Source: Symmetrospora coprosmae (taxonomy: Eukaryota > Basidiomycota > Cystobasidiomycetes > Symmetrosporaceae). From it: a DNA stretch of 64,000 bases. The notes under the pieces are model-generated. The model searched no databases. It was not told the DNA's origin and was given only the letters and a program-made list of their open reading frames with translations. Position 1 is the first letter of the stretch; each line of letters starts with the position of its first letter. Positions 1 through 58,472 of this stretch are shown in pieces. The DNA is taken from contig VUYT01000042.1 in the NCBI GenBank assembly GCA_008802785.1, positions 50,359-114,358 of the forward strand. Direction: 5' to 3'. The translations under genes and the position numbers were made by a program.

Positions 1-3000
1 TGCACGCAGCCGCGCAGGCTAGCCGCCATCTCCGTCTCTCAGCGTATCGCAGCGGAGAGAGGCGAGCAGATTGGAGATAGCGTAGGCTACCAGGTCCGCT
101 TCGAGTACAAGCCCCCAAAACCGGATGGCACCATCTCGTTCTGCACGACGGGCATTTTCCTGCGCAGACTGCAAATGAGCATCGAAGATACCGAGAGCAA
201 CTCCGCTGGAAGCGACTTTCTCGAAAACGTCACGCACGTCATTGCGGATGAGGTGCACGAGCGGGACATCGATGTGGACCTGCTCCTCTCTGTCCTCCGC
301 CGGCGTCTGGAAGAGCGGGCCAAGCAGGGCAAGGCGGGCTTCAAGGTCATCCTGATGTGAGCAAGCGTTCCAACTGTGCGAAAAGCAAACGGGTCTGCTG
401 ACCCTTCCAACTTATTGCTTTATGCAGGTCAGCAACCATCGACCCTACTCTCTTCTGCACGTACTTCATCGATCCCAAGACCAAGACGCCGTGCCCGACG
501 GTGCAGATCCCCGGTCGCACTTTCGAGGTCAAGAAGCACTACTTAAACGAGATTGTCGCCGCATTCACATCTCGACGCATCGATTTCGGTCGAGGAGCGT
601 GGGTGTTCGAGGACAAAGATGTCAAAGCCTATCTCGAGCGAGAACTGAAGGATCCGCTACCGAGGGAGATCGCCGAGCGCACGGACGACAGCCTCAAGCT
701 GCCTTCGCCTCTCATCGCCCTCACCATCGCACTGGTTGCCGAAAAGACCAGGCAGACCCGTGACGGACACATTCTGGGTGAGTGACAATGACTTCCGAGC
801 ATCAGTGAGGATGCGGAGGATTGCATGCTGAACGTGCTTCTTCGGAACGTAGTCTTCCTGCCCGGACTCGACGAAATCAAGGCTGTTCAGCGCATCCTCT
901 TAGACCGCCAACAATCCCTGCTTGATGTCGACTTCGACCGATACGAAATTCACATTCTGCACTCTGCAATCCCGGTTGCGGAACAGCAGGCTGTTTTCAC
1001 CCCTGCAGAAGCTGGCTTGCAGCGCATCATCCTGGCCACGAACATCGCAGAGACATCCGTCACCATCCCTGACGTTGTCTACGTCGTTGATGCCGGCAAG
1101 TGCAAGGTAGGTTAGCGTGATTGCAGATATGTGTAGTGCTTGCGACGTTCTGACACTATCTGATCATCTGCTCTTCGCTCTGCCAGGAAAAGCGCTTCGA
1201 CCCAGAGAGGCATCTCTCGTCCCTCGTTTCTGCTTTTACCGGCGTCGGGAACATGATGCAGCGTGCTGGACGAGCCGGAAGGCACCGTCGAGGAGAATAC
1301 TTCTCCATTGTCTCTAGTCAACGTATGGCTGTTCTGCCCCAGAACCAAACGGTCGAGATGAAGCGACTCGACCTCAGCAACGTGTGAGTTTCAAGAGCAT
1401 CCCCGAGAGGCGTCCATTGGGCAGCGCGACTGATCCCATCGTACGCCAGTGTCATGCACGTCAAGGGCCTGAATTTACCGCTGGAGGTAGAGGACGTGCT
1501 CGATCTCGTCATCGAGCCGCCTGAACACCAGCGTGTTGTCTCCGCCATCAAAGCGCTCGAGCAGGTTGGCGCTCTTGACAGCAACAAGAACTTGACCAGT
1601 CTTGGGCGTGTTCTGCTGCAACTGCCAGTCGAAGCTGCTATCGGCAAGCTCACCTTGCTGGGCTGCTTCTTTCGCTGCCTCGGTGAGTGAGCTCCGCAAA
1701 TAGACGCAACTACGCTCGTGGTGCTGACCATAGTGCCTGTTATACATAGAGCAAGCTGTCACGATTGCTGCCATCTTAACGAACCGAGACCCATTCGTCT
1801 GCCCGCTAGACAAGAGGGTGAGCAAGCTTGCCTGACGCTGTCACTGTTTGAGCTGACCATGGCCATCTACCTCAATCACTCAGAGGGAAGCAAATGCTGC
1901 CAAGCTACGCTTTGCGCCGAATGGCTTCATGTCCGACATTCTTGCCGTCCTCAAGGCTTTCAACGAGTGGTCCTCCGTGCCCGATGGATACGAGAGACGG
2001 ATGTTTTGCGACGAGAATTTCCTCTCCGGATCGACCCTTCGCTTGATCCAGCAGGTCCGAGACCACCTTATCCAGTCTCTCAACCGCTCTGGCGCACTCA
2101 AGATTAGCGGAGGCGGGCGTGACATCTACCTTCAACGGAACGCGCTGGGTCGCGTCATCATTCCGGCTGAGCTCAATGTCAATGGACAAAGCCTACCTCT
2201 GCTTACAGCACTGATCGCCACTGCTGTAGCGCCCAACTTTGCTATTCGGAAGACGGCCATGCTCCTCCGCACGCCGCAGGATCCGGTGAGGCATCTACCT
2301 CCGGCTCCCCTTCCGGCTTGGCAGGTGCGCTCTGGTCTAACTGTTCTTTCGTCAGGCTGCGGTGATCCACCCCAGCTCGCTACTCTCGACGCAGAAGTCC
2401 AAGAAGCTGGGAGACGCTGGCGATCAACTGCCTCCAAGCAAGCGCCAGGTAAGCGTGATGAATCGAAACGGTCGTGCGCCCTCAAATCGAGGAGCTGAAA
2501 CCGCTGAACGACCTAATCAGGTCTATGCATATGCCGAAGCAACGCGAAATGTATCCCAAGGCGACGCGAAGAAGGCCGCCAAGCAGGACTCGATGCTTCG
2601 TGGTATAACTCTGCTAGACCCGCTGGGTCTGCTCCTGTTCGGAGTGCATCAACTTAGCATCGTCCGGGATGGGTGCGTCGTTCAGCTTGCTCGTTCTGAG
2701 TGGTGTGATGTGCTGCAGGCACTAACGCCACCTCCCTCCTATCTCACCCCAGCTTCAAGTGCGATTCCTGGCTACCGGTCTCTGGCAATGTCAGCGCTCT
2801 GGACGACCTCGAGCGTTTCAAGGACGCTCTACAGCTGTCGCTACTGCGCGTATTCGAAGGGCTCGGTGTAGCCATGACAAAGCAACGCCAGCTGGAGGGG
2901 GGCTTCGACACCATGGACGCAAACGAGCCCGAAGAGAATGAGTACGTACCTGCCTGTGCATTGTGTGTCAACCCGGGCATTGACGGCTCGTATTCTCTAA

Positions 3001-4852
3001 TTGCCCACAGAGTTGGCGACGAGAGTCTCGATTCAAGCGATCCTACCCTGTCGGACGCCGAGATTAGGGATCTGGATCAGCTCACGAAGAACGTCGTCGA
3101 GGTGCTCAACATGCACGCGATGGACAACGGCCTGCCTGCATTTGCCGAGATTGCCAGAAAGCCCAACTATATGGACGACGAGCCAGCCTACGACAGTCAA
3201 TATGGGTCTCGGCGTCGAGAGGATCGTGGAACTGGAGATGGCCATGTCGGCAGTTACAGAGCGACTCGATCTGGAGACGAAATTTACGCAGCTGGTGGAG
3301 GGAGTGGAGACGATGGATGGGGCGACTGGGGTACTGCGTCTGGCCAGGGTACGCCAAAGAAGAAAGAAGCCACGCTCATCCCCACCCAAATTCCAGCGAG
3401 ACCTGTTCCAAAGGCTGCTGGAGACGATTGGTCTGAATGGGGTCAAACTCACCAGGCGAATGGTAGTGGACTCCCCAGCCACGCCACTCAGATGACATCG
3501 ATAAGCGGTGCAGCAACTCGATCCACTCCGAAAACTTCGCAGGCGACGGACGACGACGCTTGGGCTTCGTATTCGGCTAGGCCGGTAGTCAACGATGCTT
3601 ACGAGCGACGTGCAGCGCTCTCGCGTGGCGAATCTCTGCGCTCACTTGCAGCTCGCCCATCTAGCCCCAAACCAGCTCAGCCTCTCTATGATGGAACGAC
3701 CTTGCAGTCAGCTGGCAAGCTTGATGCCAGGCCTCCCGAGCCGGCCGCAGATGACGGTTGGGGGAGCTGGCAGCCGACCACAGCAAATAACGATGCATTC
3801 GAGAGACGGGCAGCTCTGGCCCGCGGCGAGGTCCTGTCACCTCTGCGACCGGCTCTGATCTCGGCGCCTGCGCCTGCTGAGCAGCTACGATCACAGGTTG
3901 CCTTGACATCGCGCGACCGCTCGGCATCGACTACCATGATGCAGGCTGTCGACCATCTCATCGCCAAGAACGGATGGAACTCCAGCAGACCTCCATCGCG
4001 CAATGCAGGGCAGACTTCGAGACTCCTCTCGGTGTTCAATGCGCCTTCTGGACCAGATAATTTACACAGCGGGTGGGGCGACCCTGGAACCGAGCAGCCT
4101 CGGTCGCAGCCAGGAAAACCGGGCCCGACGCCTGACTGCGCTCCAGCAGCAGACGATGGCTGGGGAAACTGGACAAAGCCGGATGCCGAACAAGCGGGGG
4201 CAGAAGCATATAGGCGTCGGCAGGCTCTTTCGTCGAATGCGAACGGACACACTAACGGCGCAGCAGCCTCGCCAGCCTCTTACGCTGCCGTCCGTCCCAA
4301 TTATCCGCTTGCAGAAGAATCGCGAAGAGCCAGAAGTCCGAGCCCGCCTGCAGCCGCCGGCGAACCGGCTGACGACGGTTGGCTGAAATACACCCCCTCG
4401 GCCGCCGCAAGCAAGGAAGCCGAGCTTGCGTATCAAAGGAGGGCGGTGATGAGTGCACAGTCACCTGGCTCGAATGGCTCGTCGACGCAAGTAAGTACGA
4501 GCGCACGCCGCATCACATCAGGGCTACGCTGACTGGATGTGCACAGCATGAATTCCGGGTCCTTTACGAAGAACCGGGCCTCCGACCGTACGATCCAGCC
4601 CTGGCTTTTCAGCCTCCACCCGCCCTGCTCCGTCCTAAAGCTGGCGCCATTAACATCAGAGGCAGCGCCTCGAAACAGCGCATATCGTCGTCAAGTGCAT
4701 CTTCGGGTACCAGCACACTTCTAGCGGGCGTGCGCGGCATTTCCATCCGTGGCAGCTCACCGAGTCCCACGGCCAACGGCAGCATCAGCAGCAAGCACCG
4801 CAGCCTAGCGCCACCTACACCCATACATAACGAGACAACGGGCCGGGAGTAG
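1..4852 (+). CDS. DExH-box RNA helicase with repeated W-rich (WG/GW) C-terminal tail; 5' end outside window
   Basis: The window opens inside motif Ia (TQPRRLAA), so the P-loop exon lies upstream. Then come DEVH (motif II), SAT split by the first intron (about 359-427), VFLPGLDEI after the second intron, [19 protein letters not shown] (motif V) and QRAGRAGR (motif VI). The helicase-associated and OB-fold regions follow ([24 protein letters not shown]). This order fits the DHX29/DHX36/DHX57-type DExH helicases that unwind or remodel RNA. After the OB-fold the protein continues for some 500 residues of low-complexity tail. In it DDGWGxW motifs alternate with AYERRAAL motifs (see findings). The last intron is 4491-4546, and the stop is TAG at 4850-4852. 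The core assignment is firm; the exact orthologue and the function of the tail are unknown. Confidence 0.9.
3309..4451 (+). repeat. Protein-level repeat: DDGWGxW plus ERRAAL modules in the helicase tail
   Basis: Four copies of a 23-27 residue module lie at 3549-3620, 3750-3818, 4152-4229 and 4371-4451. Each starts with an acidic Trp motif ([30 protein letters not shown]). After 8-15 residues comes a basic segment ([32 protein letters not shown]). Module starts are 67, 134 and 73 codons apart. A degenerate NGWN sits near 3970, inside the double-length gap. Two further Trp motifs (DDGWGDWG at 3309 and DDWSEWG at 3424) lack the basic half. The DNA copies have diverged, so the repeat is conserved at protein level. 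Confidence 0.85.
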
Positions 4853-4956: not shown

Positions 4957-4988
4957 TTTGAATTACGCTGCCTTTGAATTACGCTGCC
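4957..4988. repeat. 16-bp perfect tandem duplication between convergent genes
   Basis: The 16-mer TTTGAATTACGCTGCC occurs twice back to back (4957-4972 and 4973-4988). It lies in the 183-nt gap between the helicase stop and the PNS1-like stop, so probably in a 3' UTR. No function is evident. Confidence 0.9.
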
Positions 4989-5035
4989 TTGGGCAGAAGT
5001 TCACTACAAAAATTGACGAGCGCTCTATACTACGC

Positions 5036-7229
5036 TTAGACTGGTGTCACGACTTGGGGATAAGTAGATTGGATGTAGCCGAAGAGCTCCGGATCTTTCT
5101 GCGCCAGCGCTCCCGGAGCTTCAGCCAAGGCGACAAAGATCGTGGAGACACCGCTGCTCAAAGCGACGTAGCCTAGGGAGTGGGTGATCTGGAAGCATAT
5201 GCCGAAGCTGTGCCCAGAAGAAGTTGTCAGTTCAAGTTCAAAAAAAAAAAAACCACCTCCGGCCGGACCAATCCGACGTACCTGTACAGCATAGCCACGG
5301 CGTAGAGCGATGTGTTGTTCTCGATGTAGGATGGGCGAACGATATGAAGGTACAGATAAGAGAAGAGGGCTCCCAGGGCTCCGCTAGTCAGAGACAAAAG
5401 CGTCCTGCATGACCAAGCGCCGTCAGCATAGTCCCCCACCCGTGCTCTCAACAAGCAATCTAGCCAGACCCACCAGATGTTGTTAACGAGACAGTCGTTG
5501 ATCAACGCGTCGATACCACGCTTCTTCAGGAGGTTCCATGCATCCTTGGCAGCAGCCACGTACTTCTTGCCGAAGAGGGCCTGTTGGAGGCAGGGGTGTG
5601 TCAACGGACCCCGCAGCTGTGGAGTCAACGAAGAGCTTAACTTACAATTTCGATGTACGCGTATCTGTTGAAGTAGGCCACCAGTCCGCGAATGCATCCG
5701 ACAATGCATTGAGCAAAGCAGGCCAGGCAAGCGCCAACCATGTCGCCGCTGTCGGCCTGTTGCTGCTGAACCAGGCTGATGGCAGCTCGAATGAGATCGA
5801 GCAGTGCGACGATGAGTGATCCAAGCGCAATACTGCCGAAGCTGTATGTCATGGCTCGCCGGAAGCTAGATCGTGCTGCATGCTTAGTCTTCTCTGCTGT
5901 GGCGGAGAAGTAGTGGGAGCCAAAGATCCCGGCGACAGTCACTAGGGACACGTTGGAGATAACCTGAGTGGTCCAGCTACGACCAGGGAGGAGCCAGTTA
6001 GCAACTGGCGCGCAGGCCCGGAGGTTGCGCAGCCAGACCCACTAGAAACTGAAACACAAGAATATCACTGCGACAATCAAGCTGCCCGATCCACAGCTTC
6101 CACCGGCCGTGTCACATCCCGACGCGCTCGCCGGCGAGTATTCTAACGACAGCAGACGCGCCGTCAGCCTTGAGTCTCAGCATTGGAAGCTTGCGATGGG
6201 ACTGACTCTGATAGACGCCGACCATGGTGAAGCCCCACCAGATGCTGTACATCGCCTGCAGAAGAGTGGTGCCCAGAGCAATGCCGTACACGCTCTTGTG
6301 GACTCCAGCAATTTTGAACACGAACAGAAGGATCAACCGTGAGAACGGTATCCGCTTGCGCATTGGGAAGTAAGCGAGAATAGCCAAGACGCCTAGGATG
6401 GTAAAGATGATGGCACCGCTCCAGCTGAATGTGACGGGTGATGCGCGATGCAAGACTTAGCTCTACGACTCTGTCGACTCCAGCCCGCTTTGCGAGAACC
6501 ACTTACAACTTGGTAATCCAGAGGTAGATGGCGTAGCCGACTGTGGAGACGACGGAAAAGAGCAGCGCAATCTCAAGGATAGCGCGTGTGAACGTCCGCG
6601 TCAACCAGAGAGCGATGATGGCGAAGACGAGGCCGAGCGCCGCAATCAGAGCCAAGATGTAGGCCAGATTCAGATTGAGAGTGGGGGCGTTCGAGCTGTT
6701 GCCAGTTAGATCTCCTCCAGCATTGGTGACCGTTCGCAGGCAGATCACGCTGAGGGCGACTGGAAGCGGGGCATCATCAGCTGCGAGTGCGAGCCATGAC
6801 TTGCGGAGGAGGGACGCACTGAAGGCAAAGAACTGGGCATAGAATAGGATGCCAAAGATCAGGTCGTTCCACTTGGGCTTCGACGGGGTGAACGCTTCTT
6901 GTGCACTGTGGCGGGCGTCACGATTTCATGCGCAAGTCGCGGAGAGAAACAAGGGGGATCAGCAGTCGCCACGACATCCAGGAAGAGCCGCACACGCACT
7001 ACTCCGGCTTTGCAGAGAAGTTCTGCTGGGGTTCTTGCGGTGGAGGCTGGTACTGCGGGTACGGTGCCTGCTGCATTCCCCCCATCGCTGGTTGAGGGTA
7101 CGGCTGCTGCTGCCCGTACCCGCCGTAGGCCTGAGGCGGGCCCTGCGGGTACCCCTGCTGCTGCCCCTCATAGCCGTACGGCTGCTGCTGCTGCTGCTGC
7201 TGGTTCTGGTAGTAGCCTTGCTGCGCCAT
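5036..7229 (-). CDS. PNS1: PNS1-like (choline-transporter-like family) membrane protein
   Basis: The start at 7229 opens a short hydrophilic N-terminus rich in Q, Y, P and G (a run of eight Gln, then QGYPQGPPQAYGGYGQQQ). Several exons encoding many hydrophobic helices follow, including NLNLAYILALIAALGLVFAI, AIIFTILGVLAILAYFPMRK and GSLIVALLDLIRAAISLVQQ. The C-terminal half carries the family signature region with NRYAYIEIALFGKKYVAAAK, then NDCLVNNI, and ends in YPQVVTPV before TAA at 5036-5038. The Q/Y-rich N-terminus, multiple membrane spans and the signature block match fungal PNS1, a plasma-membrane relative of the CTL/SLC44 transporters. Its substrate is not established. One intron contains a long A/T run (about 5239-5251). 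It is convergent with the helicase. Confidence 0.9.
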
Positions 7230-8574
7230 GACGTTCAGCTTGCTCGAGTACGCGCTGGCAGGAGCAGAAGCAGCAGCAAGACCCTTGAAGCAGGGGCTGT
7301 GGGATCAGTCGATGATGGTTGCCGAGGCTTTCTTGTTTGCACGGCGCGGCTCCCAAGTTGATCGGCTATTTTGGGTCGCTTGGATCTGTAAAGCACGGCC
7401 AACGGTTGCTCGTCTTCCGCTTTGCTCGGCTCTGAAGAGGAGGAATACGCGTTACCAAGAGACGCGAAGATGATGATTATGGAACTGGACGTTTGCAGGC
7501 TTTTCGCCTCTTCATGCAGCAGCCCGACCTCCAAGCCAGCCGAGATCGGGATGGACCCGAGGTGAGAGCTGAGCGACGACCTCGAAGGGGAACTCGTACT
7601 TGATGGGCGCGGCCACCGACTGTCACCTTGCACGCTGCCCCTCCATCTCGTGACACTCGGTCTCTTTCTGTCTCGGGAGCTCATTCTTGCAGGTCGCTCG
7701 CGGAGGCCGTTGTTAGTGCAAAGCTTCCAGTACTCCCAACGCTTCAAGCGGGTAGCAGAGCAAGGCAGCTACGTATCACTTCTTCACAGCCCGCACGCAG
7801 TGCGTGCTTGCTCATGCTGCGAATGAGAGCAAGATGACCTGGCACCCTCCTTCCTGAATCCCGCACCCACTGGCCATCCGGACGGGAGAGATTATGCCAG
7901 TGACGCGCAACTCTTGCGAAAAGGAGCGCGACGCGCCATCTCGGACGCACATTCAACGTAGGCCTCTCGATTACGCGGAGAGGTGGAGGAGCACGGTCAC
8001 GTTGACTGGCGGCTACTCGGCTGGATCTACGGTTCTTGGAGGAGCCGGGTGCGGACGTCATGGGAGAGACCATCAAGCGAGCGAACAGGTTCAGGAGTGG
8101 ACGAGCGTGAAGCAGAACTCAGTGACTGCATATCGCGCCTGTACCCCTGCATCCTGTGACACGGTTGCCAGGATGTCTCCGTCTGCGGGGGGACCCGCAG
8201 GACATCCGCACTCAACGTCAGTAACTCTCAGGCAATCGCTCGGAAAGGGAAAAGCGAATCGTCAGTAGAGAGACGCTGTCAGCCTTAGACGGAGTGAACG
8301 ACCTGCCAGAGCGAAGACAAGGGCCGACTCCAGCTTACTCGACCCGTCCTGCCCGTCCGACGCGTCTGACGCGTCATCCTGTGTTTGGCCTTCGTCGATG
8401 AGAATGGGCCTTCTCCGTGATTTCGCCACCGCCCCTTTTTCATGGACCCCAGGAAGGCTTCCGCTCTGTGCGCGCCCTCTTCTCCCCTCTCCTCTGCTCC
8501 AGTTCGCAGAAACACATTATACGCCAATTCGCGCCAACCTCCACCTTCGACCCAACCCTCGCAGACAAGACAGG
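7230..8574. other. Intergenic between PNS1-like (-) and small paralogue A (+)
   Basis: This divergent gap of about 1.35 kb must hold both promoters. Open frames here, such as one of 170 codons on the minus strand at 7235-7747, have no recognisable domain and look like chance in GC-rich DNA. The only structured signal I see is the paired ACGCGT at 8360-8374, listed separately, followed by a pyrimidine-rich leader (8440-8550). Confidence 0.6.
8360..8374. promoter_or_regulatory. Paired MluI cell-cycle boxes (ACGCGT x2) upstream of paralogue A
   Basis: ACGCGT occurs at 8360-8365 and 8369-8374, about 200 nt before the ATG of paralogue A, followed by GTGTTTGGCC. ACGCGT is the core bound by the fungal MBF (Mbp1/Swi6) G1/S factor. 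The same arrangement precedes paralogue B. G1/S regulation is inferred, not shown. Confidence 0.55.
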
Positions 8575-17248: not shown

Positions 17249-20200
17249 ATGTCGGGCAACCAGCAGGTGCAGCAGCGGCCGTCCTCCTCGGAGCAGCAAG
17301 GGCAAGGGCAGCAAGGGCAGTCCAGCGCGTCCAGCGGACAGGCCTCAGAGGGACAGCAGCAGCAACAGCAACAGCAACAGAAGGAGGATCCACACTTTGC
17401 TCGTCTGGCGTCGGCCTCCAGCGTGCTCAGCAATCGCATCAGTCAGGATGCCAAAGTCGAGCAGGCGACCGAACTGAGCGAGGTCCTGAACTGTCAGTTC
17501 TTTCGGTCGGAGCAGGCTGGGAGAGACGCCCACGAGGTAGCTATACATGCTGACGCCCTTCCATCTCGTCCTCTCCCCTCCAGCAAGCGCGTCGGGAGAC
17601 TATGTGTTGCCCCACAACGCTGCATGGCAGCCGTTCGTGAAGAGCAGGACAATCAACCTGCCAGACGCGCTCTTTGAAGAGTACAACCGTGAGTGCGGGG
17701 CACACCTCGCCGGAGCCTCACGGCCTGACACTGTGCCTTCGTGCAATCGTGCACATGCGCAGTCCTCGAATGCCGTTGCTACATGGGCCTGTTCCCCGAG
17801 ATTGAGCGAGCATGGATCACCGTCGACCACCGGCTGTTTCTGTGGGACTACCAGGATGGGTAGGCAGGAGCAACAGCCTTCATGCACTGGACCTGCTGCT
17901 GATATTCTCTGCTTTGTGTTTCAGCTCCGGCTTCACTTCTTTCGAAGAGATTCAGGACGTCATCGTTGGCGTAGCTCTCGTCCGCCCAAAACCAGGTATG
18001 ACCATCAGACGCGCGTCCGCGGTCGCTCGCGTCATGCTCACAACTCTTCCTTCTCATAGGCATCTTCATCGATTCAATCACCCATCTTCTCGCCATCTCG
18101 ACGCCTCTGGCTCTGCATCTCATCGGTCTGTCGTACATCCCAGCTTCGTCGTCGAAATCCGGCAAAGCGTCCTTCCAGCTGTACATCCTCGACCTAAAAA
18201 TTCCAACGGGCGATGGACGATCCATCACCAACATTGTCGGTACCCCTTCAGGACGCATCTTTGGCTGCTCGACCGGGTCGGGCAACAACGCGAGCGGATC
18301 TGGCGCCATTGGAGATGCGGGAGAGCTGTACGAGGTCATCTATAACTCAAAGGAAGGGCTGTTCAGCAAGAAATGCTACCTCGTCAACCTCAGCACGGGA
18401 GGGAGCATAGCGGGAGCATCCTGGATCGTGCCCTCCTTCCTCCGCTCATCCGGAGACCCCAATAACGGCAACCACATTGTGCAGCTGTGTCTGGATCCTG
18501 AGCGTGAGCTGCTGTACACTCGGACGCGCAACAACATCATCGAGCTGTGGAACGTGCAAAAGGGGAAGAACGAGAGGGTGGCCAGCGTCAAGGATGTGCG
18601 GCGGCAGGCAGGCATGCTCTGCCCTGGCTCTCCATTGCTGGGCAGCAGCAGCAATCCGAGCGCTGGAAGCGGAAGCAACTTTGACATTGTCGGAATGGAG
18701 ATCATCAATCAGAAGGAAGGCAAGGGGATCGGGCTGGTCTGCATCACGGGAAGCGGCGTGCGCCTCTACTTTACGCATCAGCGGGGCGGCCTACGTGGCT
18801 ACAACAGCGGCGGCAGTCAGGGCGTGCAGGCGCCAGTGTGCCTCGAGCTTGTGCACGTCCGCTTGCCTCCGAATCTTCAACAGCAGCAGCAACAGCAGCA
18901 ATCCCAGGGTAGCTACGCCCCAAGCAACGGCAACAACATCTCGATCTCCTGCGTGCCCAGCTCAGGCGGTGGTTTCTTCCTAGCTGCCAATACCGTCACA
19001 GACGACACGGATGTTCTCCTCCTCTTCTCGCCGGACATTGGCCGCATCGCGACAGCATCGCTCACTGGCGGGCGCACGGCACTGGTCGAAGTGGCGGGGC
19101 AGATCCCGATTGAAGGACGGACGTGGGCAGTAGCGGAGACGAGCACGTCGCCCGGCTTTGCGCCCACCGGACAGCAGTACCCCGCCAATGAGCTCAAAGC
19201 CGAGCTCGCGAGCGTGGGCAGGCGGGGCAAGCGCGAGTTCCTTTTCCTTACGAACATGGGTATGCACGTCGTCTCGCGGCAAAGGCCTGTCGACACGCTG
19301 CTCCAGTTACTGGACACCGCGCCAGGATCAGGGCGGGATGCGGAACTCGCAGCGTTTGCAGAGACGTAAGCTTCTGCAATGCCAGCAGAGCTTCGCTGTG
19401 CTCGTTGGATAAGACACTCACTACGTCCTCCCTTCAGATACGGTCGCAACGAGACATGCAGCATGCTCCTGGCCATCCTCGCCTCCTCCGCTGCGGTATT
19501 TGGCGACCAGACTGCCAACCCGGCGAGCTACAGCGGAGAGGTGCGCAATACTGCCAGAAGAGCATTCTTCGAGATTGGGGGCCGAGCCATGGGCGTACAG
19601 CGAGGATTGCAGGGTGAGCTGAAGCGACATATTGCTTTGGAGACGACGTCGGCTTAGCACTATATATGCTGCGCAGTCCCGACTGGAGCGGCGACTACCA
19701 GCGAAGGCAAGGTCATTCTGAGCGGACGCCATGAAGGTCTCGCCATCTACTTCAGCAGGATCGTCAGTTCGCTGATGAGCAGCAAGATTGTCGTGCCTGC
19801 GTGAGTTTCCCAGTCCCGCTACAGCGATCCGCACCCAAGCGAAGAGTGTCCTTTTGAAACTGTTGCCATTCACGCGGTCATCAGGACAACGCCGCAAAAT
19901 CCGTTCAGGGTCGATAGCAATCTACCGGACAGCTTGCTGATGAAGGTTCAGCGAGACCTTAGCAACCTGCGAAACTTGCTAGAGGCGGATCAGCAGCTCT
20001 TTGCTCTTATCGGTGATCAGTGGAGCGGACGGAGCGAGGTCGAAGCAGCAGAGGTGAGCATTTGGCTGAGGTTGCCATTGCGCACAGAACCAATGCTGAG
20101 CCAGATCCACGGTCTTGGCCTGCAGGCGGAACAAGCGTCTGTCAATGCGCTTCGCGGGCTGCTAGTCCAGTCCATCGAAGCCATCTCATTCGTCCTCCTC

Positions 20201-22320
20201 CTCATCGATTACAAGCTTCCAGAAGTCGTTACATCGTGAGCGTGGTTTCTCGTGCAGCCATGGGTAGACAAGAGCGCTGAGCCCGCTTTTGTGCAGATGT
20301 CCTACGGATCTCGCCAAGACCCTGGTGGACATGACATATGCGGACCTATTGACGACCAGCAAAGGGCGCGACATTGCCCGGTCACTCGTGTCAGCCATCA
20401 TTAACATTCAGATCGGCCAGAATTTGAGCGTCGATGCTATATCGGACGTGCTTCAGCAGCGCTGTGGCAGCTTCTGCTCCGCCGATGATGTATTGCTGTA
20501 CAAGGTGCGCGGCCCTTGTAGGCTCTCGCTACACCGGCGCAACTGACGTTGCACACGCCCATCAGGCCATCGAGAGCATTCGCAAAGCCAAGTCGGGTCC
20601 GCCTTCAGAACGGACATCAAGCCTGCGCGAGTCCCTGCGGTTGTTCCAGAAGGCTTCCTCGCATCTGTCGTCCTCCAAGTTGAGCGAGGTCGTGCAAGAG
20701 TACAATTCGCTGCGCTTCCAGACTGGCGCCATCGACCTTGCGCTCACTTGCGCCGATTCGTGGGACTCGGAGGAGCGAGGCCTGTCATGGTGGAGAGACG
20801 GCAGTCCCAAGAACGACAGCCGGGCACCCAGCTGGGAACCCCGCAAGTTCTGCTATGATCGCGTCCTCGAGACGCTGCAGAGCGCAGACGACCTCCTCAA
20901 CTCGGCCATCGAGAGCAACGGGCGCGAAGGCGGTGTGTCAACGGGCGAAGCAGACGGGATCCGATCGAATGCCTACTCGCGCGCGCTTGCATGCAACACG
21001 GACGCCCTGCACTTTGCTCTTTACGATTGGCACCTTGAGCGCCGGCTCACGGACCAGCTGCTCGAGGTTCGGGCCAGCACGCACTCGAGTGGAGACGATT
21101 ACCTCGAGCAGTACCTGCTGCGCGAGCCTGTCTCGCTCGAGAGGTACGACCTGCTCTGGCAGTACTACGCGCGGCATTACCAACACAGCAAGGCCGCATC
21201 GGTCCTGGCGACACTTGCCGAGAGCACCGAGTTCCCAACCGGGTCCATCTCGCTCAACAAGCGCCTAGAGTACCTCAGCCTCGCGAGCAGTAACGCGAAA
21301 TCGCAGTTCCCGAACCCAGGTATCCGGCAGGACATCATTGGCTTCCTCACGGAGCTCGATGAGAAGCTCGAGGTGGGAACGGTACAGGTTGAGATATTCC
21401 GGCAAATCGAGGAGCTCCCCTCGGGCGCCATCGAGGATCGCCAGCGGGACGCGCTGCTCAAACGCCTCGAGGAACGCCTGTTCAGCATATCGGAGCTGTA
21501 TGCAGAGTTCGCCGAACCTCTCCACCTTCATGAAGTCATGCTTCTGATCTTTCACGTCTCGGACCACCGCGATGAGGAGCATATTGCGAGGACGTGGGAG
21601 GCGCTCATCGACCACGGTGCGTGTCTGCCATTGGTGTACAGGCGATACTGCTGAGCTTCCGCTGACGGACACGGTTCACCCTCGCACTGCAGTCATTCAA
21701 GATTCGTCGTCGGACACGGAAGCTACGCGCACGCTGTCTGGCAAGCTCACGATGCTGGCTCGGCGATTCTACCCGTCAGATGTGGCGTTGCCGTTACGTG
21801 AGTGGATTGCCCGTCGAATAGCGTGCTCGTGCAGCCGGACTGACTCTAAGATGCCCGCTTTCCATTTGCAGCGAGCATCGTCTCCATTCTAGAAAGCTGG
21901 AACCTCGACCAGCGCAACGCTGCGGCTGCTGCGAAGGAAGGGCCAGCGGACGGCGATAGCAGCACCGCCACAGATCTTGCAGCGTGGGTTCCAGTCTCTT
22001 TGCGAGACGGTGGAGTCCCCTACGAGCTCCTCTTTGGAGTGTACGATGCGCTCTACTCCTCTCGGCTGCCTCCCTTCAGCTCGGCGAGCGTGGCGATATC
22101 TGCACTCCTGCCGAGCCTGTGCAGCATCCTGTCCGCCTGGCTGAAGGAGCTCACTATGCAGGGATATAGCAGCAACGGAGGCATGTCGGTCTTTCCGGCA
22201 AACGACGTCGAGCATGCTGTCGGTCGATACCTAGCGGACAGCGCGGGCGGGAGCGGGGTCAAGGCGAGCACGAGGGAGAAGCTGCAAGAGGTGCAGAGGG
22301 AGATTCGCAGACGGTTCTAG
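17249..22320 (+). CDS. NUP170: Nuclear pore inner-ring nucleoporin, Nup155/Nup170 family
   Basis: A scaffold nucleoporin of the inner ring that contacts membrane and linker nucleoporins. The start at 17249 opens a Gln/Ser-rich N-terminus with a long Gln run. The conserved beta-propeller entry follows (WQPFVKSRTINLPDALFEEY, ECRCYMGLFPEIERAWITVD, HRLFLWDYQDG, FEEIQDVIVGVALVRPKPG). The large exon at about 18060-19366 carries the propeller and poly-Gln/Asn-rich loops. The second half is the helical solenoid in several exons, including LERYDLLWQYYARHYQHSKA, LEYLSLASSNAKSQ and VPYELLFGVYDALYSSRLPP. It ends with EIRRRF and TAG at 22318-22320. Overall size (near 1,400 residues) fits the family. A small exon after the Gln-rich segment has ambiguous borders (17490-17585). 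Confidence 0.93.
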
Positions 22321-28590: not shown

Positions 28591-29451
28591 GGGCGTTCCT
28601 GCAGAGCAGCCCCGACCACACCGGACGTATCACAGCGGCGCTGAACCATCTCGCCCGCGCCTGAGCCCAAGAGGGCACGTTGCGGAAGTGTCAAGGCACG
28701 AGGGAGGAATTGGGTGCGAATAACCGAGTGAAGATACGGAGGTATCTGCGTCATGTACCGCAGTGCAGTCGGAATGAACTCGTTGCGATCCGTGACGGCC
28801 TCGCCTGAGTAACGCCCTTTCAGTCGATTGCGCCCAGGGGACCATCCCAGACCCGTTTCTCCAAGCTGTTGCGGAGTTGCTGCGAGAGTGTGTGCTTTTT
28901 CTCGAGTCTCGACGACAAGACGTTAGGCCTGCAAAAGAAGGAGCTTGAGAGAAAGAGAGGCGTCGTGGACTTTCGGTCGTTAGTGGCGAACACGCACGCA
29001 GGCGAGCTCATGGTCCAGGTCCCGTAGGAACTCCCGGGTCTGCCTCTCCATCTTCGTTCAGCTCACGCACGTCTGGTCTAACAAGGTAGCTGCTGCACCA
29101 TACGAGTACCTCCTGGCTCTGCCCTCATCAGGTCCAATCGCAAGCTCTCTGGCAGTCTGCTGCCGGCCGACCCCTTTGCCCCTCTTTCTCTCGCTCGTCA
29201 CGCTAATCCAGCGCGAGCACGCTCCTCTTCCGACATCACCCAAATTTGTGGGCTGCTGAGAACGTCAGTCCTGGCCTGGTCTGCAAAGCAGCTCAGTGCG
29301 CAGCGTGTGTGTGCGTCTGCCTCATCTCTCTCCCTGCTCTGCGCCTGCGCCTCTGGTCCACCCTCTCATCAGCCCATCCCATCGTCGTCCCCTTCAGCCC
29401 GCAGCCAAAGCGCGTCCGGGCGTCACTCTTTAGGTCCACCTCGGAAACACC
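28591..29451. other. Intergenic between BTB gene and phosphatase
   Basis: An 861-nt gap holding the BTB 3' UTR and the promoter/leader of the phosphatase gene. Short open frames are present but none shows a domain or good codon pattern. Nothing was recognised. Confidence 0.5.
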
Positions 29452-32009
29452 ATGGCGACGTCGGTACAGCAGCAGCAGCAGACCGGAGCTGGCAAGCATA
29501 GCAACCTCTCACCTCAGAGGCAGTCACTCATCCGCGCGGTCACCTCCCCGCCTGCGTCCAACCCTATCCTTGTCCCCAATGCTCGATCGGGTGCCACCCC
29601 TGGCGCAGGCCGCGTCGAGCACTCCGAATCAACCACGCTCGAGGCAATGGAGGCGGCCATGTGCCGGCTGTCGTCACAGCACCAGTGCGTTCTGCTCGTC
29701 TGCCTCGAACGAGTATCAGGTCAGGACGCTGACCATCTTTGCGATCTCATCCATCGCCCCCACTCATACTCGCAGCATGTCCGACTACAATCGAATGAAG
29801 CGCATCACTAGCACGGGCATTGTCTCGCAGCCCATGGTCGCCACTGCATCCAACCCTTCAAGCGGCCGGTACGGTCAGCAGTACTACGCGCCGCCTCCAC
29901 TTCCGCCCTCGAACCGTGTCCAGCAGGGGAATGCGCGCCAAGAAACCATGGCAGCGAGAAGCAATGGCAGCGCCCGGCAGGACGAGGACTCTCGGCGACA
30001 AGCGGCGGACACACTTCTCCATATGCAGAGCCGCCCGCTCGCAGCCAAGCAGGCCGGGTCGGCTCCCCGTTCTACCGCTCTCAGCCGGCCGCAGCCCTCG
30101 CTTGAGCCGCCTCCAGCGCCCAAGCTCCACCGAACCTACACTGAAGAGGAGGGAGAGAATCCACAGTACCATGCACCAGCTCCCCAAAGTCTCGTCGGCC
30201 GGTCGCCAGATCTGTCGAGGTCACTCGGATCAGGAGCAGGCTCGGCTCTAGCTACTCCGGCCCTGTCGATGTCAGCTTCGTCTTCCACTTCCATGCAAGA
30301 TAGGAAGGCCTCGCGAACATCGGCAAGCATCCCAGGGACTCCGTACGAGGGCATCAATCTGTCGCCCGTTCAGCCTCGAACTATCAAGGACGAGAGCAAC
30401 GATAAGATCCTCTCCGACATGCTCACCGATGCCATGGAGGACAGGATGCTGCCAACATCTGCCATCCCAATCAATGTCAACAAGTCACAGCCAATGGCTG
30501 GGTCTGCCGCTGCGCACCTGCAGGGCTTGGGTATAGCAAAATCAGCTTCGCCGGCCAGCCAATCGCTCTCGGCAATCATGTCGCGATCAGATACTTCGGC
30601 TGCGCCCTCGCTACCCGCCTACTCACCAGCCTTGACCACAGGCAACTACGATGTCTTTCACCCCAGTCTCGCTGGAGTCAAAACCTCGCTCACCCACCCG
30701 ATGAACATTTCGCCTCTCCTGCCGCCCGAGTTGCTGCCACTGTACGGTGGTAGTATCTTCAACGCTGGGCCGACCAAAGGGGCAGATGCTACCCGATCTC
30801 GGTCACCTCTAGGCAAGCTGTCTGTCAATGTTGACAGCAACGGCGACGATACGCGACCGCCCAGCCCGACAAAGCTCGCTCGGCCTTCTTCACCCAGCAA
30901 GTCAGGCGGTACGAGTGCCTCGAGGCCGACCAGTCCCGTCAAAGGCAGTTCATCTAGCATGATGTCAGTATCGAGGCCATCGACCCCATCCGTACCTAGT
31001 GTGGACGTGGCCGGCAAACCGTTTGTCGTGGCGCCATCGGCGGACATCCACACCCTGATTGGGCCAAATGCAGGGCCAGAGCTATTCAAGCTCTCACTGC
31101 CCATCTCTCAGTCCCTAGCAATGACGTCGTCAAAGGAGGGAACGTTACAGAATGGTAACGCAGGAGCCAGCAGTGGCGGCTCGCCAGCTCCGGCTCGAAT
31201 GGGGAACCTCGTCCTCTGCTCTTGCCCAGGCAAGAAGGTTAGGCTGTCCGACGAGCACCTCAGTATCCTTGGTGTGCCCGAGATTTGCCGACCAGGAGGA
31301 GCGCCAGTCGACCCTCGCGGGTTGCCCGGTGCTGCGGTGCCCCTGCCTGGAAACAATCGCTCGCCCATCTGCCGAGACATCGAGCTCGACTTCCGAAGGG
31401 CAATGACTCATGGAGACGTCAAGGTCGTCGTCTGCTGCATCGACGATGCGGAACTCAGGTTCCTCGGTGCAGCCTGGGAGGAGTATGCTCGGGTCGCCGA
31501 TGAGCTCGGTTTGGAGGTTATCAGGTAAGCCCTCCGCTACCTGCTAATCTAGCCCTCGTACGGCGCTGATCGCTTATACCGCTTTCGTCTGTAGACTTCC
31601 CATGGCAGAAGGCTTTGCCCCCGCCAATCCGGAGCAACTCGACGCTCACCTCAGCTACCTCGTCTCCAAGTACACCATGCACGGGCACAACGCACTCGTC
31701 CATTGCAGAGGCGGTGTCGGGCGAGCCGGACTATTCGCCTGCGCATGGATGATCAAGATGGGCCTTCTCGGTCCGGTCAGCGGGATCCACGATCCAGCAG
31801 GTCGGCAGCTCGATAATGAGATGCGCATTGTCGAAAAGGTCATCGAAGTCATCAGGAAGCGAAGGTCGGCAAAGGCCATCGAGACGCCGCAGCAGGTCCA
31901 TTTCATTCTCCAGTACATTCACTGGCTGTCCAATCACGCCAAAGTCCTCACCGGCAGAGAGGCGCTCGAGCTTCAACCCGTCAAGCCCGATCCCATTCCT
32001 GGATCGTAA
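29452..32009 (+). CDS. Dual-specificity/CDKN3-like protein phosphatase with long disordered N-terminus
   Basis: Exons 29452-29684, 29776-31524 and 31595-32009 give 798 residues in one frame. The ATG at 29452 starts ATSVQQQQQTGAG; a later in-frame ATG (MSDYNRMKRI) opens exon 2. Roughly 560 residues of Ser/Pro-rich low-complexity sequence come first, with PPSPTKLARPSSPSK and SRPTSPVKGSSSS (proline-directed sites). The C-terminal phosphatase has GNLVLCSCPGKKVRL, RSPICRDIELDFRRAMTHGD, VVCCIDDAELRFLGAAWEEY and the active-site loop VHCRGGVGRAG (H-C-x5-R). The catalytic Cys and Arg are intact. The repeated SP/TP sites suggest control by cyclin-dependent kinase or MAP kinase. Substrate unknown. Confidence 0.85.
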
Positions 32010-36034: not shown

Positions 36035-39000
36035 ATGGCCCACGCTCACGGCAATGCAGGCAGCGCCGTTGTGGCTGGACGTGAGTTGTGCGCATCTCAC
36101 GAGAGTGAGACGTGGACAGTACTGTCATAGTGGACGTCGGACGTGAAGCACTTGCTGATCCCCGCCTCGTCTTGCTTCTCTTTTTGGGTCGCCCGTCCTG
36201 CCGAAACAACGACAGCCGCGTCGAGCTCAAGCTCGCAATCTCCGTACCACGATCACCGTGAGCTTCGCTGCCAGTGCCGCGTCGCAAAGTTGTGGAGAAG
36301 CTGCAGAATGTGGCTACCTGCGTGCTGACCACTGCGGACTGTCCCCTATCGCGAACAGCCCTGAACGCTGTCGCCCACGCGCAGGCAATCCCCCTGCCGC
36401 GAGCAACTCCGTCATCCTCAGGCAGTGGTGGCGGAGGCCCATCCTCGGCGTCAAGCAGGCCATACCAGCTCGCGGAGGCGCCGCAGGCACAGCTGCCACA
36501 GACTTACCAGCACGGGAGATCCGTGTCTGACGCCAGCACGGCCTACGGCGGCCAAGGGCAGAGTACAGGAGCCGTGTATCCCAGCTCGCCCGCTCGCCAT
36601 CAACAACCGACAGGTCAGACAGGCGCCTATGACTTCAATGCGCAGTCCTCCAGCTCTTCACCACAGCTGGATATACGCCGGCAGCGTGCATCACTACCAC
36701 AGAGTCAGCCCGGAGAGTGGCCCGGCGGCGGGCAGAGGGACGTTGCTATGAGGCGCAGCGTCGAAGGCTTGGGGCTGGGCGGCATACATATGCCACAGTC
36801 AATGGGAGCATTCGGGACGCCCTCGATTGGAGCAGTAAGAGCCGCGTTAGGCTCGTCTCCTTCAGCCGCCTCCTTGCACCGGAATGCCATTTTCGCCAAC
36901 AGCGGAAGCACCCCTGCTGCAGCAAACTATTCATACGCCCGTCAATACCCAGAGGCTCAGCCGCAGTCCTACCAGAACTCTCCGCACATGCTACAGCACC
37001 AGCTTGCCTTAGGCGACAGCTCTGCAGGCCCGTCTCCCGTGCCCGACCACCGCCGAGCGGTGCAAAGCGACGGAACATCTAGTGCAGGACCGTCGGGGCT
37101 GGAACATAGCTATGCAATGCCTCCGTTCACCCTTCTAGCACCTATCGATCCCAGCCAGGGGCCAAGTCAACAGCCTCCAACCTCCGCACCGGGCTTCTAT
37201 CTGTATCAGCCGAGCCGGCCTGTTCAGCAAGATCAAATCGATCCTAGCCTAGGCGCTAGCCAGACAAGCGGTCTCTTCGGTCCATCTCCAGTCGCAGCAT
37301 CAGGCCCGACTTTCCCTGGTTATGGCCCCATGCCAAGTGCCACGTTAGATGCCTTTGCGTACGCAACCCCGCCCACAACTGCCAACTCTTCGACATCGTC
37401 GCCGCCCCGCGAGCAAGTCCTTCCGCTGTTCCGCTCGTTGAGTGGCTTCTTCACAGTGCAATCTGCGTATCCACCGTCGGGCCCGACTGGGACTCCCGTG
37501 TCCGTCGCTGTGAGCGTCGTCGCTCACGAGCCACACGTGGTCCGAGGATTCAAGGTGGTGTTCGGGCGCCATTCGACGACGACGCGGGTCACATCAGAGA
37601 AGCGCTACCCGGATGGCGAAGTTGTCGACTTGGTCGCGACAACGCCAATGCTCCACCTCGCGAGCGGAGACCCCGCTTCCAGCAGCGTGGTTGGCTTGCA
37701 ATTGCACGCCCTAGACGGGTCTGGCAACGTGGTGGATTGGGCAGACATAGGACAATTCGACTATACGGATGCATCGTCATCGGTAGCGAGTGGTTCTGGC
37801 TTTCGCATGCAGAAGAGACCTGGGTCGCCCCTCTCGAGTACAAGAGAGTCTCCACAGCATCCTAGTCGTGCCACGTTCACCGATGGCATGTCACCCACTC
37901 ACAAATCGGTACACTCTCGCAATTCCAGTATAAGCTCGCTAGTCAATGGGTTCGGACACCTCGGGCACCATTCACGCAATTCAAGCTTGGCGAGTGCAGG
38001 TAGCGACAATATGGCCTACTCGCATTCGTCGAGTTCGCGGCCTCTGTCATCTTCCCAGCGCTCTTCCCTCTCTTCCGCGTCCAGAGGCGAGCCAGGGAAC
38101 GCAGCGTTCGCTGGAGCACCTCAGTCGGAGGCTGATCTCTCAGAAGGGACGGCCGAACGCGCCGACCGCAAGCCAATCGCAAGGTTGCGGGTAGCTACAA
38201 CCTCAGCCAGCTCGACAGCAGCATCCTCTGCGCTGCGGCATCCTCCCATCGACCCGAACGCCGCGCCCACAGCGGCTCTTTACCGCAGCGCTCAAATCAC
38301 ATCACATCCTGATCAAGGGGTCGATCTGACTGGCTTGACCGACCAAGCTAGCTTGCAGTTCGATAGCAACCTGGACCTGATGGCCATGGGATGGTCGCAC
38401 GATGAATGGGTGGCCAAGCGCAGGCTGGTGCTGTTCACACGGAGGCAAGTGGGCCAGACCATCAGCGCCAATTTCCGGCCGGTCGAGCTTGGCGAGCTGT
38501 CGGAGAACAGTATCGTCATCTCATGCATCTTCCGGGAGGACAAGAACGAGTGCTTCGTGACATCGGTCGACACAATCTATCTCCTTGAAGCGCTCGTTGC
38601 TGTCCGCTTCACGGTCGAAGAGAAGAATCGGATCAGGAGGAATCTCGAAGGGTTCAAGCCTATCACTGTTACAAAGGCCAAAGCAGAGTCGGAGGACTTT
38701 TTCAAGCTCATCATGGCGTTTCCAAACCCAAAGCCGCGCAACATCGAGAAGGACGTCAAGGTCTTCCCCTGGAAGACTCTTGGACCAGCACTGCAGAAGA
38801 TCATTAGCAAGTACTCAGCGTCGTATGTTCCGCCCGAGTCTATCACCACACCTGGTCGGCCTGTTCCTCAGCCGATAGGGTGGGCGCCTGGACGGACGCC
38901 GCCGCCATCTTCTGAAGCGGCCTCTAACGACGGGTCAACGCAGTCCACGCCGTCCAGTCTATCAGCAGAACTGCAAGACGTGCTGCACCGTCCAGGGGCG

Positions 39001-39231
39001 CCCTCCCTCGCTACTGTCCCTGAGCATCCTCGCTCTTCTTCCTCCGCATCTTCACATACCATCACACCTCAGCCCGTGCCTCCGGCTCTACCATCATCCC
39101 TAGGCGCCTATCCGAGTCAGCTGCCTTCGGAGGCCACGTATCCTTTCTCCCAGGAACACGCGCGCTATACCGACGGAGGGATGCAATCATCAGCCGGGGA
39201 CAACTTCAACCCAGCCTATCGATACCCGTGA
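36035..39231 (+). CDS. Medusa (medA/Med1)-type developmental regulator
   Basis: Exons 36035-36080, 36216-36257 and 36359-39231 give 986 residues; the small first two exons encode MAHAHGNAGSAVVAGP and SSSSSQSPYHDH. About 360 residues of Ser/Gln/Pro-rich sequence follow. A middle domain then contains LPLFRSLSGFFTVQSAYPP and RGFKVVFGRHSTTTRV. The signature C-terminal domain has QFDSNLDLMAMGWSHDEW, KRRLVLFTRRQVGQTISANF, SCIFREDKNECFVTSVDTIY, FTVEEKNRIRRNLEGFKPIT and SEDFFKLIMAFPNPKPRNIE. This block is what I recognise from fungal medusa proteins, which govern conidiation and mating or virulence programmes. No classical DNA-binding fold is visible. Repeated SRNSS/HSRNS motifs between the domains may be phosphorylation sites. 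Confidence 0.8.
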
Positions 39232-57100: not shown

Positions 57101-58472
57101 CACCTCGTCCTGGAAAGCAGCGAGCTCTAGCCACACAGCGGTGTCATTCGGGTGAGACCGAAGATGCTGTTGGAAGTTCTTATTGCGTCGTTGAACGTAT
57201 GTATCGTAGCTTTCGCCGTCCTCGTCTTCGTCTTCCACGTCGTCCTCCGACAAGCCGCCGCTGTCGCTGCCAGGAGATCGGTCGTCGCGTGCTTGAGCTT
57301 GACGAATGACCTTTCCAGAGTTCTCAAGTGCAGAGGAGACCGGTTCCGTCCGCAGTGGCAGGAAGTCCCGCTCCGCATCGAGAGCTGGGGGATTCAGCCC
57401 GCTTGCATCGGCGGTGGCAGCGAGCCGCAACTGCTTTCGGTGACGATCAATCAGCAGCCTGACAGTCTTGCGGTCGGCGAGTCGCGGTACCTGCAAAAGA
57501 CGATCATGTCATCGGAGGTCAGTTCCGCACCTGTGGTGGTGCTTGCCGTCATCCGCCCAAGCTCACTGATGATCGACCGGCGCGGCCGGCGATGATTTCC
57601 AGACCCTGCCCAGCGTACGCCGACTCTTTGGTGATTTTCCACTCGCCAGTCATACCGATGATGTGGCCATCTGGGAAGAATGCAACATCGCGCTCAGAAC
57701 AGGCTCGGTCGGACCGTTGCGCAGGAGTACTCACAGCCGATTCTGCGGTATACCGGGACGGAACCCCGATATAGCTTCCCGTACTGCCGAACATCCTGAT
57801 CCCCTCTCCGGTCGAGAGTGTACAGCTCGCGGTCCAACAGGCCTATAACTCCCTGTATAGACGTGGATCCCTGGTTACTGCTTGACGCCACGACGTTCAG
57901 CGTCGATGTCGGGGCCTTTGAGCGAGGGCGAAATAAGCGGTCAGTACGACAGCATGTTTTGTTTCATATGAGTAGGGCTAGCAGACCTCGTCTGCGGAGA
58001 TAATATTGCGGGCGCGGACATTGGGAGAACTTGATCTTCGACGCCTCCGCTTTTCGTCTCTGCGCTCACTATGCCGCTTGCGCTCGGAGGTTTGTATGTC
58101 GGACGCTGCATCATTCCGGCTCTGCCTGTCTGGGCCGTCCCTTGGCCTGTCGCCTCTTTCGCTGCCGTGATGCCGAGAACGTCTTTTGCTCGACGCCATG
58201 CGGTCATCGCTATCGCTGGCGCGAGCACCTAGCTGCAGGGTCTCAACGGCGCGGTGCTCTTTCCGAGAGGACGTTGCGTCTTCTCTACCATCACGCGGAC
58301 TGCTCCTTCGCTTGTCCTTCCGCCGTGTCCGTTCATTATCGTCTTGTCTTTCGGACCTGCTTCTGGAGCGTTTCCGAGCGCGCTTCTTGCCGTCTTGCGC
58401 AGGAAACGAGTCAAAGGCTGGAGCGTCTGGAAAGGAGGTGAAGCTTGGGGCAGTTGTTGAGAACGAGGTCAT
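54105..58472 (-). CDS. NRDE2: NRDE2/Nrl1-family RNA-regulation protein
   Basis: A nuclear protein that binds Mtr4-type helicases and affects RNAi, splicing or exosome decay. The ATG chosen is 58472 (MTSFSTTAPSFTSFPDAPAF); it is followed by an Arg/Ser/Asp-rich region (KKRARKRSRSRSERQDDNER). Family blocks in order: YTLDRRGDQDVRQYGKLYRG and VPVYRRIG; YDTYVQRRNKNFQQHLRSHP with NDTAVWLELAAFQDEVHNKL; ISILERALAQPGN; RFWLEYITFRQTRATVFTVQ (HAT-like repeats); FWDSEVPRFGEEGARGW; and DDPYATVLFDDIRGLLFVVA. C-terminal exons include VRTVLEEMILRPHTVSAQGW and FERAVDNER. It ends RLRLLPV, TAG at 54105-54107. At least nine exons; some borders between 55440 and 55770 are not fully fixed. It is divergent from the F-box/WD40 gene. 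Confidence 0.9.

Follow-up and report, generated by a model that had tools for sequence, protein, structure and literature searches.

Among the closest described systems are proteins that bind the CCR4-NOT complex through short segments of their chains; the papers cited for these and for the other systems below are drawn on in excerpt. In fission yeast, Puf3 attaches to Ccr4-Not by segments dispersed along its disordered region, among which is a DFW motif that is predicted to occupy the Trp pockets of Not9, and many of the interacting residues at the Not9 sites are reported to be invariant throughout eukaryotes (PMC12819147). Unkempt binds CCR4-NOT via a Trp motif (W622, F625) together with a separate predicted helix (PMC11009413), and Roquin of Drosophila relies on multiple motifs that are partly redundant, one of which is an amphipathic CAF40-binding helix with a large hydrophobic face (PMC5303829). 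Here we describe a two-part module, an acidic Trp motif followed by a segment with paired arginines (RR), that is repeated in the C-terminal tail of a putative RHA-group DExH RNA helicase of the basidiomycete Symmetrospora coprosmae. The gene lies in a stretch of 64,000 nucleotides (GenBank assembly GCA_008802785.1, contig VUYT01000042.1, positions 50,359 to 114,358 of the forward strand), which we refer to as the window and number from its first letter.

The helicase coding sequence ends at 4852, and the 5' end of the gene, motif I (Walker A) and any N-terminal domains lie upstream of the window. The spliced model, in which introns were placed by eye and without transcript evidence, has 11 GT-AG introns of 56–80 nucleotides each and a frame that stays open throughout; introns as short and frequent as these are in keeping with a basidiomycete gene. 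Its features are as follows.

1..4852, forward strand: 3' part of the gene for an RHA-group DExH RNA helicase, comprising 12 exons and 1359 codons up to the stop
247..258, forward strand: helicase motif II, DEVH (DExH box), read directly from the sequence and its translation
2898..4852, forward strand: C-terminal tail past the helicase core, residues 751–1359 (about 609 residues), with introns at 2942–3010 and 4491–4546
3309..3329, forward strand: Trp motif 1, DDGWGDW, with no RR segment downstream
3423..3440, forward strand: Trp motif 2, DDWSEW, with no RR segment downstream
3552..3620, forward strand: module M1, DDAWASY, 8 residues, AYERRAAL (23 residues in all)
3750..3818, forward strand: module M2, DDGWGSW, 8 residues, AFERRAAL (23 residues)
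3969..3980, forward strand: degenerate Trp site NGWN, with no RR segment
4071..4079, forward strand: degenerate Trp site GWG (SGWGD), with no RR segment
4152..4229, forward strand: module M3, DDGWGNW, 11 residues, AYRRRQAL (26 residues)
4371..4451, forward strand: module M4, DDGWLKY, 12 residues, AYQRRAVM (27 residues)

The tail contains six acidic di-aromatic Trp motifs, starting at residues 865, 903, 946, 1012, 1146 and 1219, with the form DD-x-W-x-x-[WY] (the x before W is absent from one copy). Each of the last four has A-[YF]-x-R-R-x-[AV]-[LM] downstream of it, beyond gaps of 8, 8, 11 and 12 residues, respectively, and the resulting four modules all sit within one long exon (3011–4490). 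Aligned with each other they share invariant DD, W, A and RR, and across the six motifs the second aromatic is Trp in four (WxxW) and Tyr in two. Consecutive modules begin at intervals of 66, 134 and 73 residues, and the longest interval, from M2 to M3, contains both degenerate sites. A preliminary description of this DNA had reported four modules of 23–27 residues, each an acidic Trp motif followed by a basic RR segment, with two more Trp motifs upstream and a degenerate NGWN, all of which we find in place. It did not list the GWG site, and of its spacings (67, 134 and 73 residues) the first holds only if M1 is counted from an extra D. The last exon of the helicase (4547–4852, forward strand) is a distinct Pro- and Ser-rich end that contains no modules.

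The repetition is well beyond what shuffled tails produce. In 200,000 shuffles of the 609-residue tail there were never more than three Trp motifs (six observed) or one RR motif (four observed), both patterns having been written after the sequence was seen. The stronger of the chance tests is one that uses no pattern: over residues 804–1261 the best off-diagonal ungapped self-match scores 90, compared with a shuffle mean of 40.1 (standard deviation 5.1) and a maximum of 59 in 300 shuffles. That match joins M1 to M2 over 32 residues; M3 and M4 score 68 over 49 residues, and M2 and M3 score 63 over 21. Random placement set all four RR segments 6–14 residues after four different Trp motifs in 24 of 200,000 trials. 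Elsewhere in the window, in all six frames, the Trp pattern occurs once (26087, EEAWRRW) and the RR pattern does not occur. The repeated Trp/RR module is therefore confirmed as an observation, and from the M3–M4 match of 49 residues and the M1–M2 match of 32 we conclude that a unit of about 66–73 residues was probably duplicated.

The DNA of the copies has diverged while the motif has been kept, as the preliminary description had also noted. Over the six module pairs, codons for the same residue differ in 36 of 56 comparisons and four-fold sites in 18 of 23, the latter against a fraction of 0.75 expected for random bases. Ten comparisons gave a proportion of differing synonymous sites (pS) of 0.57–1.25, with values above 1 coming from very few sites, and of differing nonsynonymous sites (pN) of 0.04–0.50; these compare copies inside one gene and are not a ratio of nonsynonymous to synonymous rates (dN/dS) between species, the module pairs are not independent, and the numbers of sites are small. 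The lowest pN is that of the M2–M3 Trp block (pS/pN 1.00/0.04) and the highest that of M3–M4 with the linker included (0.72/0.50 over 49 codons); M1–M2 gives 0.72/0.31 over 32 codons. The M1–M2 RR block has a pN of 0.06, and the other four RR-block pairs compared are looser (0.23–0.39). Because silent sites are near saturation and the motif residues are conserved, the copies look old, with the motif held at the protein level. DNA repeat finders recovered little: one tandem repeat of 16 nucleotides outside the coding region and one family of 22 nucleotides, whose three copies fall in motif 1, M2 and M3, on their Trp blocks (73–86% identity); the blocks of motif 1 and M3 are less diverged in DNA (86% over 22 nucleotides, pS 0.57). 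The reading frame of the exon ranks top of the six for codon usage trained on the core (−0.065 vs −0.147 to −0.234), a weak signal in that another frame is slightly ahead in two of five overlapping sub-windows, and third-position G+C is 0.56 in the modules' exon vs 0.69 in the core.

Structure was predicted with AlphaFold2 from the single sequence of the 493-residue exon. The mean predicted local distance difference test score (pLDDT) is 46.3, with 352 of the 493 residues below 50, and the tail is probably disordered. Within the tail, confidence is highest for a helix next to the core.

3054..3125, forward strand: predicted helix directly past the core, residues 780–803, block pLDDT 66–79

All six Trp motifs lie outside the predicted helices. 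In M1 and M2 the RR segment is covered by a predicted helix (residues 957–969 and 1022–1035, respectively), a helix at 1158–1169 spans six of the eight RR-segment residues in M3, and a short one at 1235–1240 reaches just the first three in M4; block pLDDT for these helices is 44–58. Prediction of a single module, proposed in the preliminary description, was carried out for M2 with the four modules as alignment and gave a helix over the RR segment (residues 14–27 of 31, pLDDT 72.7). This lends weak support, since isolated peptides readily give short predicted helices.

The tail resembles no catalogued domain among those searched. Pfam yields no match up to E=1 over residues 751–1359, and solved structures yield none up to E=10 for the whole tail. 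A profile of the modules found one solved structure, an hnRNP K peptide at E 0.89, and the 120 residues around M4 plus the last exon found two at E 1.2 each; all were dismissed as chance-level. In collections that have no bearing on fungi, a 385-residue part of the tail gave one pattern match in viral contigs and three in prokaryote contigs, and the four-module alignment gave 50 in viral contigs, none of them confirmed. Known motif classes were sought in the tail by pattern. The tail contains no Atg8-interacting W-x-x-[LIV] and no eIF4E-binding Y-x4-L-phi, the motifs on which membership of those classes would depend; the wider acidic [WFY]-x-x-[LIV] matches once, at residue 1260, outside the modules. 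PEX5 W-x3-[FY], the PAM2 core, RGG and the strict gamma-ear motif each have no match in the tail, and the gamma-ear motif with Trp permitted fits one of the six Trp motifs. The ubiquitin-interacting motif, the D-box and the WASP-type CA region were dropped, their likeness having been judged by eye only.

Full-text literature searches with the strings DDGWG, DGWGSW, DGWGNW, DGWGDW, YERRAAL and FERRAAL returned nothing relevant, as judged from titles and abstract openings. Papers on GW/Argonaute helicases and on the tails of fungal DHX36 and DHX57 do not describe the module in the titles and abstract openings of the matches listed. As far as tested, we found no description of the composite Trp and RR module, and disordered effector arms that bear Trp are already known from RNA-binding proteins and from the RNA helicase SDE3. 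The earlier statement that no named domain has this layout thus stands for Pfam and solved structures, with the qualification that its ingredients are not new.

The enzyme that carries this tail is placed in the RHA group by its core domains and structural matches, in agreement with its first description as a DExH RNA helicase. Motif II is DEVH, and the core holds Helicase_C and both HA2 parts (HA2_N and HA2_C), with Pfam matches above cut-off to Helicase_C (PF00271, 7.5e-12), PF21010 (5.2e-8) and PF04408 (2.4e-5); the DEAD model, clipped by the window edge, and the OB fold (PF07717) are below it (E 0.22 and 0.11). The top solved-structure match is DHX36 (E 1.1e-92), followed by DHX9, MLE and DHX29, and the candidate subfamilies are DHX36, DHX57/DHX29 or the YLR419W type. 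Comparison of the core with prokaryote genome contigs, a collection that says nothing on fungi, gave 12 pattern matches of which none was confirmed. Structured RNA is the substrate of RHA-group helicases. To our knowledge, little has been established about how the fungal members are targeted or how they connect to mRNA decay or silencing. A 2025 survey of the helicases of Ustilago maydis gives the YLR419W-type member as of unknown function and, in the text consulted, uses neither 'tryptophan' nor 'intrinsically disordered' (PMC12511879).

Multivalent docking seems to us the most natural reading of the tail. We infer an intrinsically disordered arm that would have arisen by old tandem duplication of the unit of about 66–73 residues. 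The acidic di-aromatic motif would act as a short linear motif, inserting its Trp into an aromatic pocket of a partner, and the [YF]-x-R-R helix would make a second contact, either to RNA or to that partner again. Avidity would come from several weak sites in one chain, so that the helicase would bring an effector to the RNA being remodelled. The preliminary description had likewise proposed a multivalent docking tail; of what it put forward, the repeated two-part module, kept at the protein level in a probably disordered tail, is supported, and the docking partner is putative.

The likeliest class of partner would be the mRNA-decay and silencing machinery, with the Trp pockets of Not9 in CCR4-NOT first and Argonaute second, an order that follows from the Puf3, Unkempt and Roquin precedents. 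We consider a docking arm of some kind, whatever its partner, to be rather probable; the narrower reading, in which the partner of the arm belongs to decay or silencing, falls a little short of an even chance, and CCR4-NOT itself, ranked first, is a tentative and on balance doubtful choice. The Puf3 and Unkempt regions are, like the tail as we read it, disordered and multivalent, with Trp beside an acidic residue (DFW in Puf3) or an aromatic at +3 (Unkempt) (PMC12819147; PMC11009413). W622 and F625 of Unkempt have the i/i+3 aromatic spacing seen in the helicase tail, and a predicted helix forms its second site. Both proteins differ from the tail in having, as far as the excerpts show, one key Trp motif rather than tandem modules, and the helical site of Unkempt uses the hydrophobic residues V511, I515 and L522, whereas the RR helix is not amphipathic.

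Several observations weigh against such a docking arm or its proposed partners. The hydrophobic moment of the RR helices is 0.15–0.19 in four 14-residue windows, and 76–87% of shuffles reach values as high; the CAF40-binding helix of Roquin is amphipathic, and by that measure the RR segment does not qualify as a CAF40/Not9-binding helix. Roquin-like groove binding is therefore disfavoured, and an acidic surface or RNA are possible targets. The RR segments do not stand out in the model: three helices outside the modules, between M2 and M3, have block pLDDT 52–69 vs 44–58 for the RR helices. Tyr takes the place of Trp at +3 in two of the six motifs, and we know of no need for a fixed DD or for an aromatic at +3 in the pockets of either Not9 or Argonaute. 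The tail may instead be a low-complexity scaffold or an RNA-binding tail.

This last alternative, in which acidic-aromatic and basic segments alternate and promote both self-association and binding to RNA without any one pocket partner, fits the charge of the blocks (the six Trp blocks carry a net charge of −1 to −3 and the four RR blocks one of 0 to +2), the richness of the tail in Ala, Ser, Pro and Gly, and the low confidence of the model. However, a charge pattern alone would not demand such constrained spacing or the invariant DD, W, A and RR, and the tail is devoid of RGG; we regard this explanation as unlikely, albeit the best placed of the rivals.

An Argonaute hook is a further candidate, the tail tethering Argonaute as the AGO hook of plant SDE3 does and having arisen convergently in a fungus. 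Gly adjoins eight of the 12 Trp residues in the tail, which contains 12 GW/WG dipeptides, and most of the tail model is of low confidence. SDE3 is listed among the proteins with an AGO hook, which in its case is confined to some angiosperm families (PMC10991848), and helicases are therefore able to gain an AGO hook. In Cryptococcus, Ago1 occurs with Gwo1 in a P-body complex (PMC6643885), and Gwo1 and Gwc1 are listed among GW182-like and GW/WG proteins in a paper that also names Ustilago maydis as a species that has lost RNA interference (PMC4778953). SDE3 of Arabidopsis shares with the present protein an RNA helicase core with an added Trp-rich hook, but that hook is defined by GW/WG and is not known to contain a unit of DD-x-W-x-x-[WY] plus RR helix. 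SDE3 is a superfamily 1 (SF1) helicase with its hook at the C-terminus, and the helicase described here is of the RHA group of DExH proteins; a 2012 paper by Garcia reportedly bears on SDE3 as an AGO-hook helicase. What is fixed in the tail motifs is DD together with the +3 aromatic rather than Gly, four of the 12 Trp residues have no Gly neighbour, and the RR helix has no known place in an AGO hook. Moreover, the Trp pockets of fungal Argonautes are reported to be remarkably variable (PMC12477606), a point that also tells against Argonaute as the partner of a docking arm. We consider a hook of this kind distinctly unlikely.

It is also conceivable that the acidic WxxW motifs bind the MHD of delta-COP or a related adaptor, and so tie the helicase and its mRNA to membranes. 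The delta-COP class consists of Trp-based motifs amid negative residues (PMC7145657; PMC4868844), and four of the six tail motifs have WxxW; both facts also count against a decay or silencing partner. Its di-Trp motif (ELM LIG_deltaCOP1_diTrp_1) resembles the tail in placing Trp amid acidic residues in a disordered loop. It differs in belonging to trafficking proteins and in that the excerpted sources mention no basic helix, and two of the helicase motifs have Tyr as the second aromatic. No membrane feature was noticed in the tail by eye, and no search aimed at one was made. STRING predicts links to endocytosis proteins for a DHX29/DHX57-type helicase of U. maydis and, through the same proteins, for the YLR419W-type one (PMC12511879), but these links are predictions, for helicases not established as orthologous to this one. 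A vesicle-coat contact is very unlikely in our estimation.

Acidic-aromatic motifs resemble activation domains. Contact of the Trp motifs with RNA polymerase II or a coactivator is the most improbable of these explanations. In DHX9, a DExH helicase that likewise belongs to the RHA group, three Trp residues of the minimal transactivation domain are essential to binding of RNA polymerase II (PMC5173168). They provide a precedent for protein contact through Trp in such an enzyme, but they lie on the N-terminal side of the core and are not in repeated modules.

Beyond the helicase stop by about 105 bases is a perfect 16-bp tandem repeat of 2.1 copies (4957–4990, noncoding), and facing the helicase, at about 5036–7304 (reverse strand), is a gene whose product, judged by eye, resembles PNS1/choline-transporter-like membrane proteins and is rich in Gln and Tyr at its N terminus. 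A Pfam scan of the open frames of the window covered 10 of the 16 long ones. It places Nup133-N-like and then non-repetitive nucleoporin C-terminal domains at 18002–19369 and 20428–21654 (forward strand), probably in one nucleoporin gene. The 773-codon frame at 29207–31528 (forward strand) has no Pfam match at E 0.001, and the 989-codon frame at 36262–39231 (forward strand) contains DUF7082 at residues 695–848 (E 1.9e-67) and no further match at E 0.001. A second DEAH-type helicase lies at 50675–52765 (reverse strand; Helicase_C 2.4e-10, HA2_N 3e-10), and 56603–57508 (reverse strand) encodes a portion of a protein in the NRDE-2 family (E 2.4e-41), which Pfam labels 'necessary for RNA interference'.

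With regard to what the tail may mean for this family of enzymes, the broadest proposal is that a new bipartite docking module arose and was amplified in a fungal DExH helicase, making of it a GW182-like scaffold that would tether several copies of a decay or silencing effector to structured RNA. We offer this as a speculative and rather unlikely extension of the docking arm. The tail units are distinct and separable, and they would make the question of the partner directly testable.
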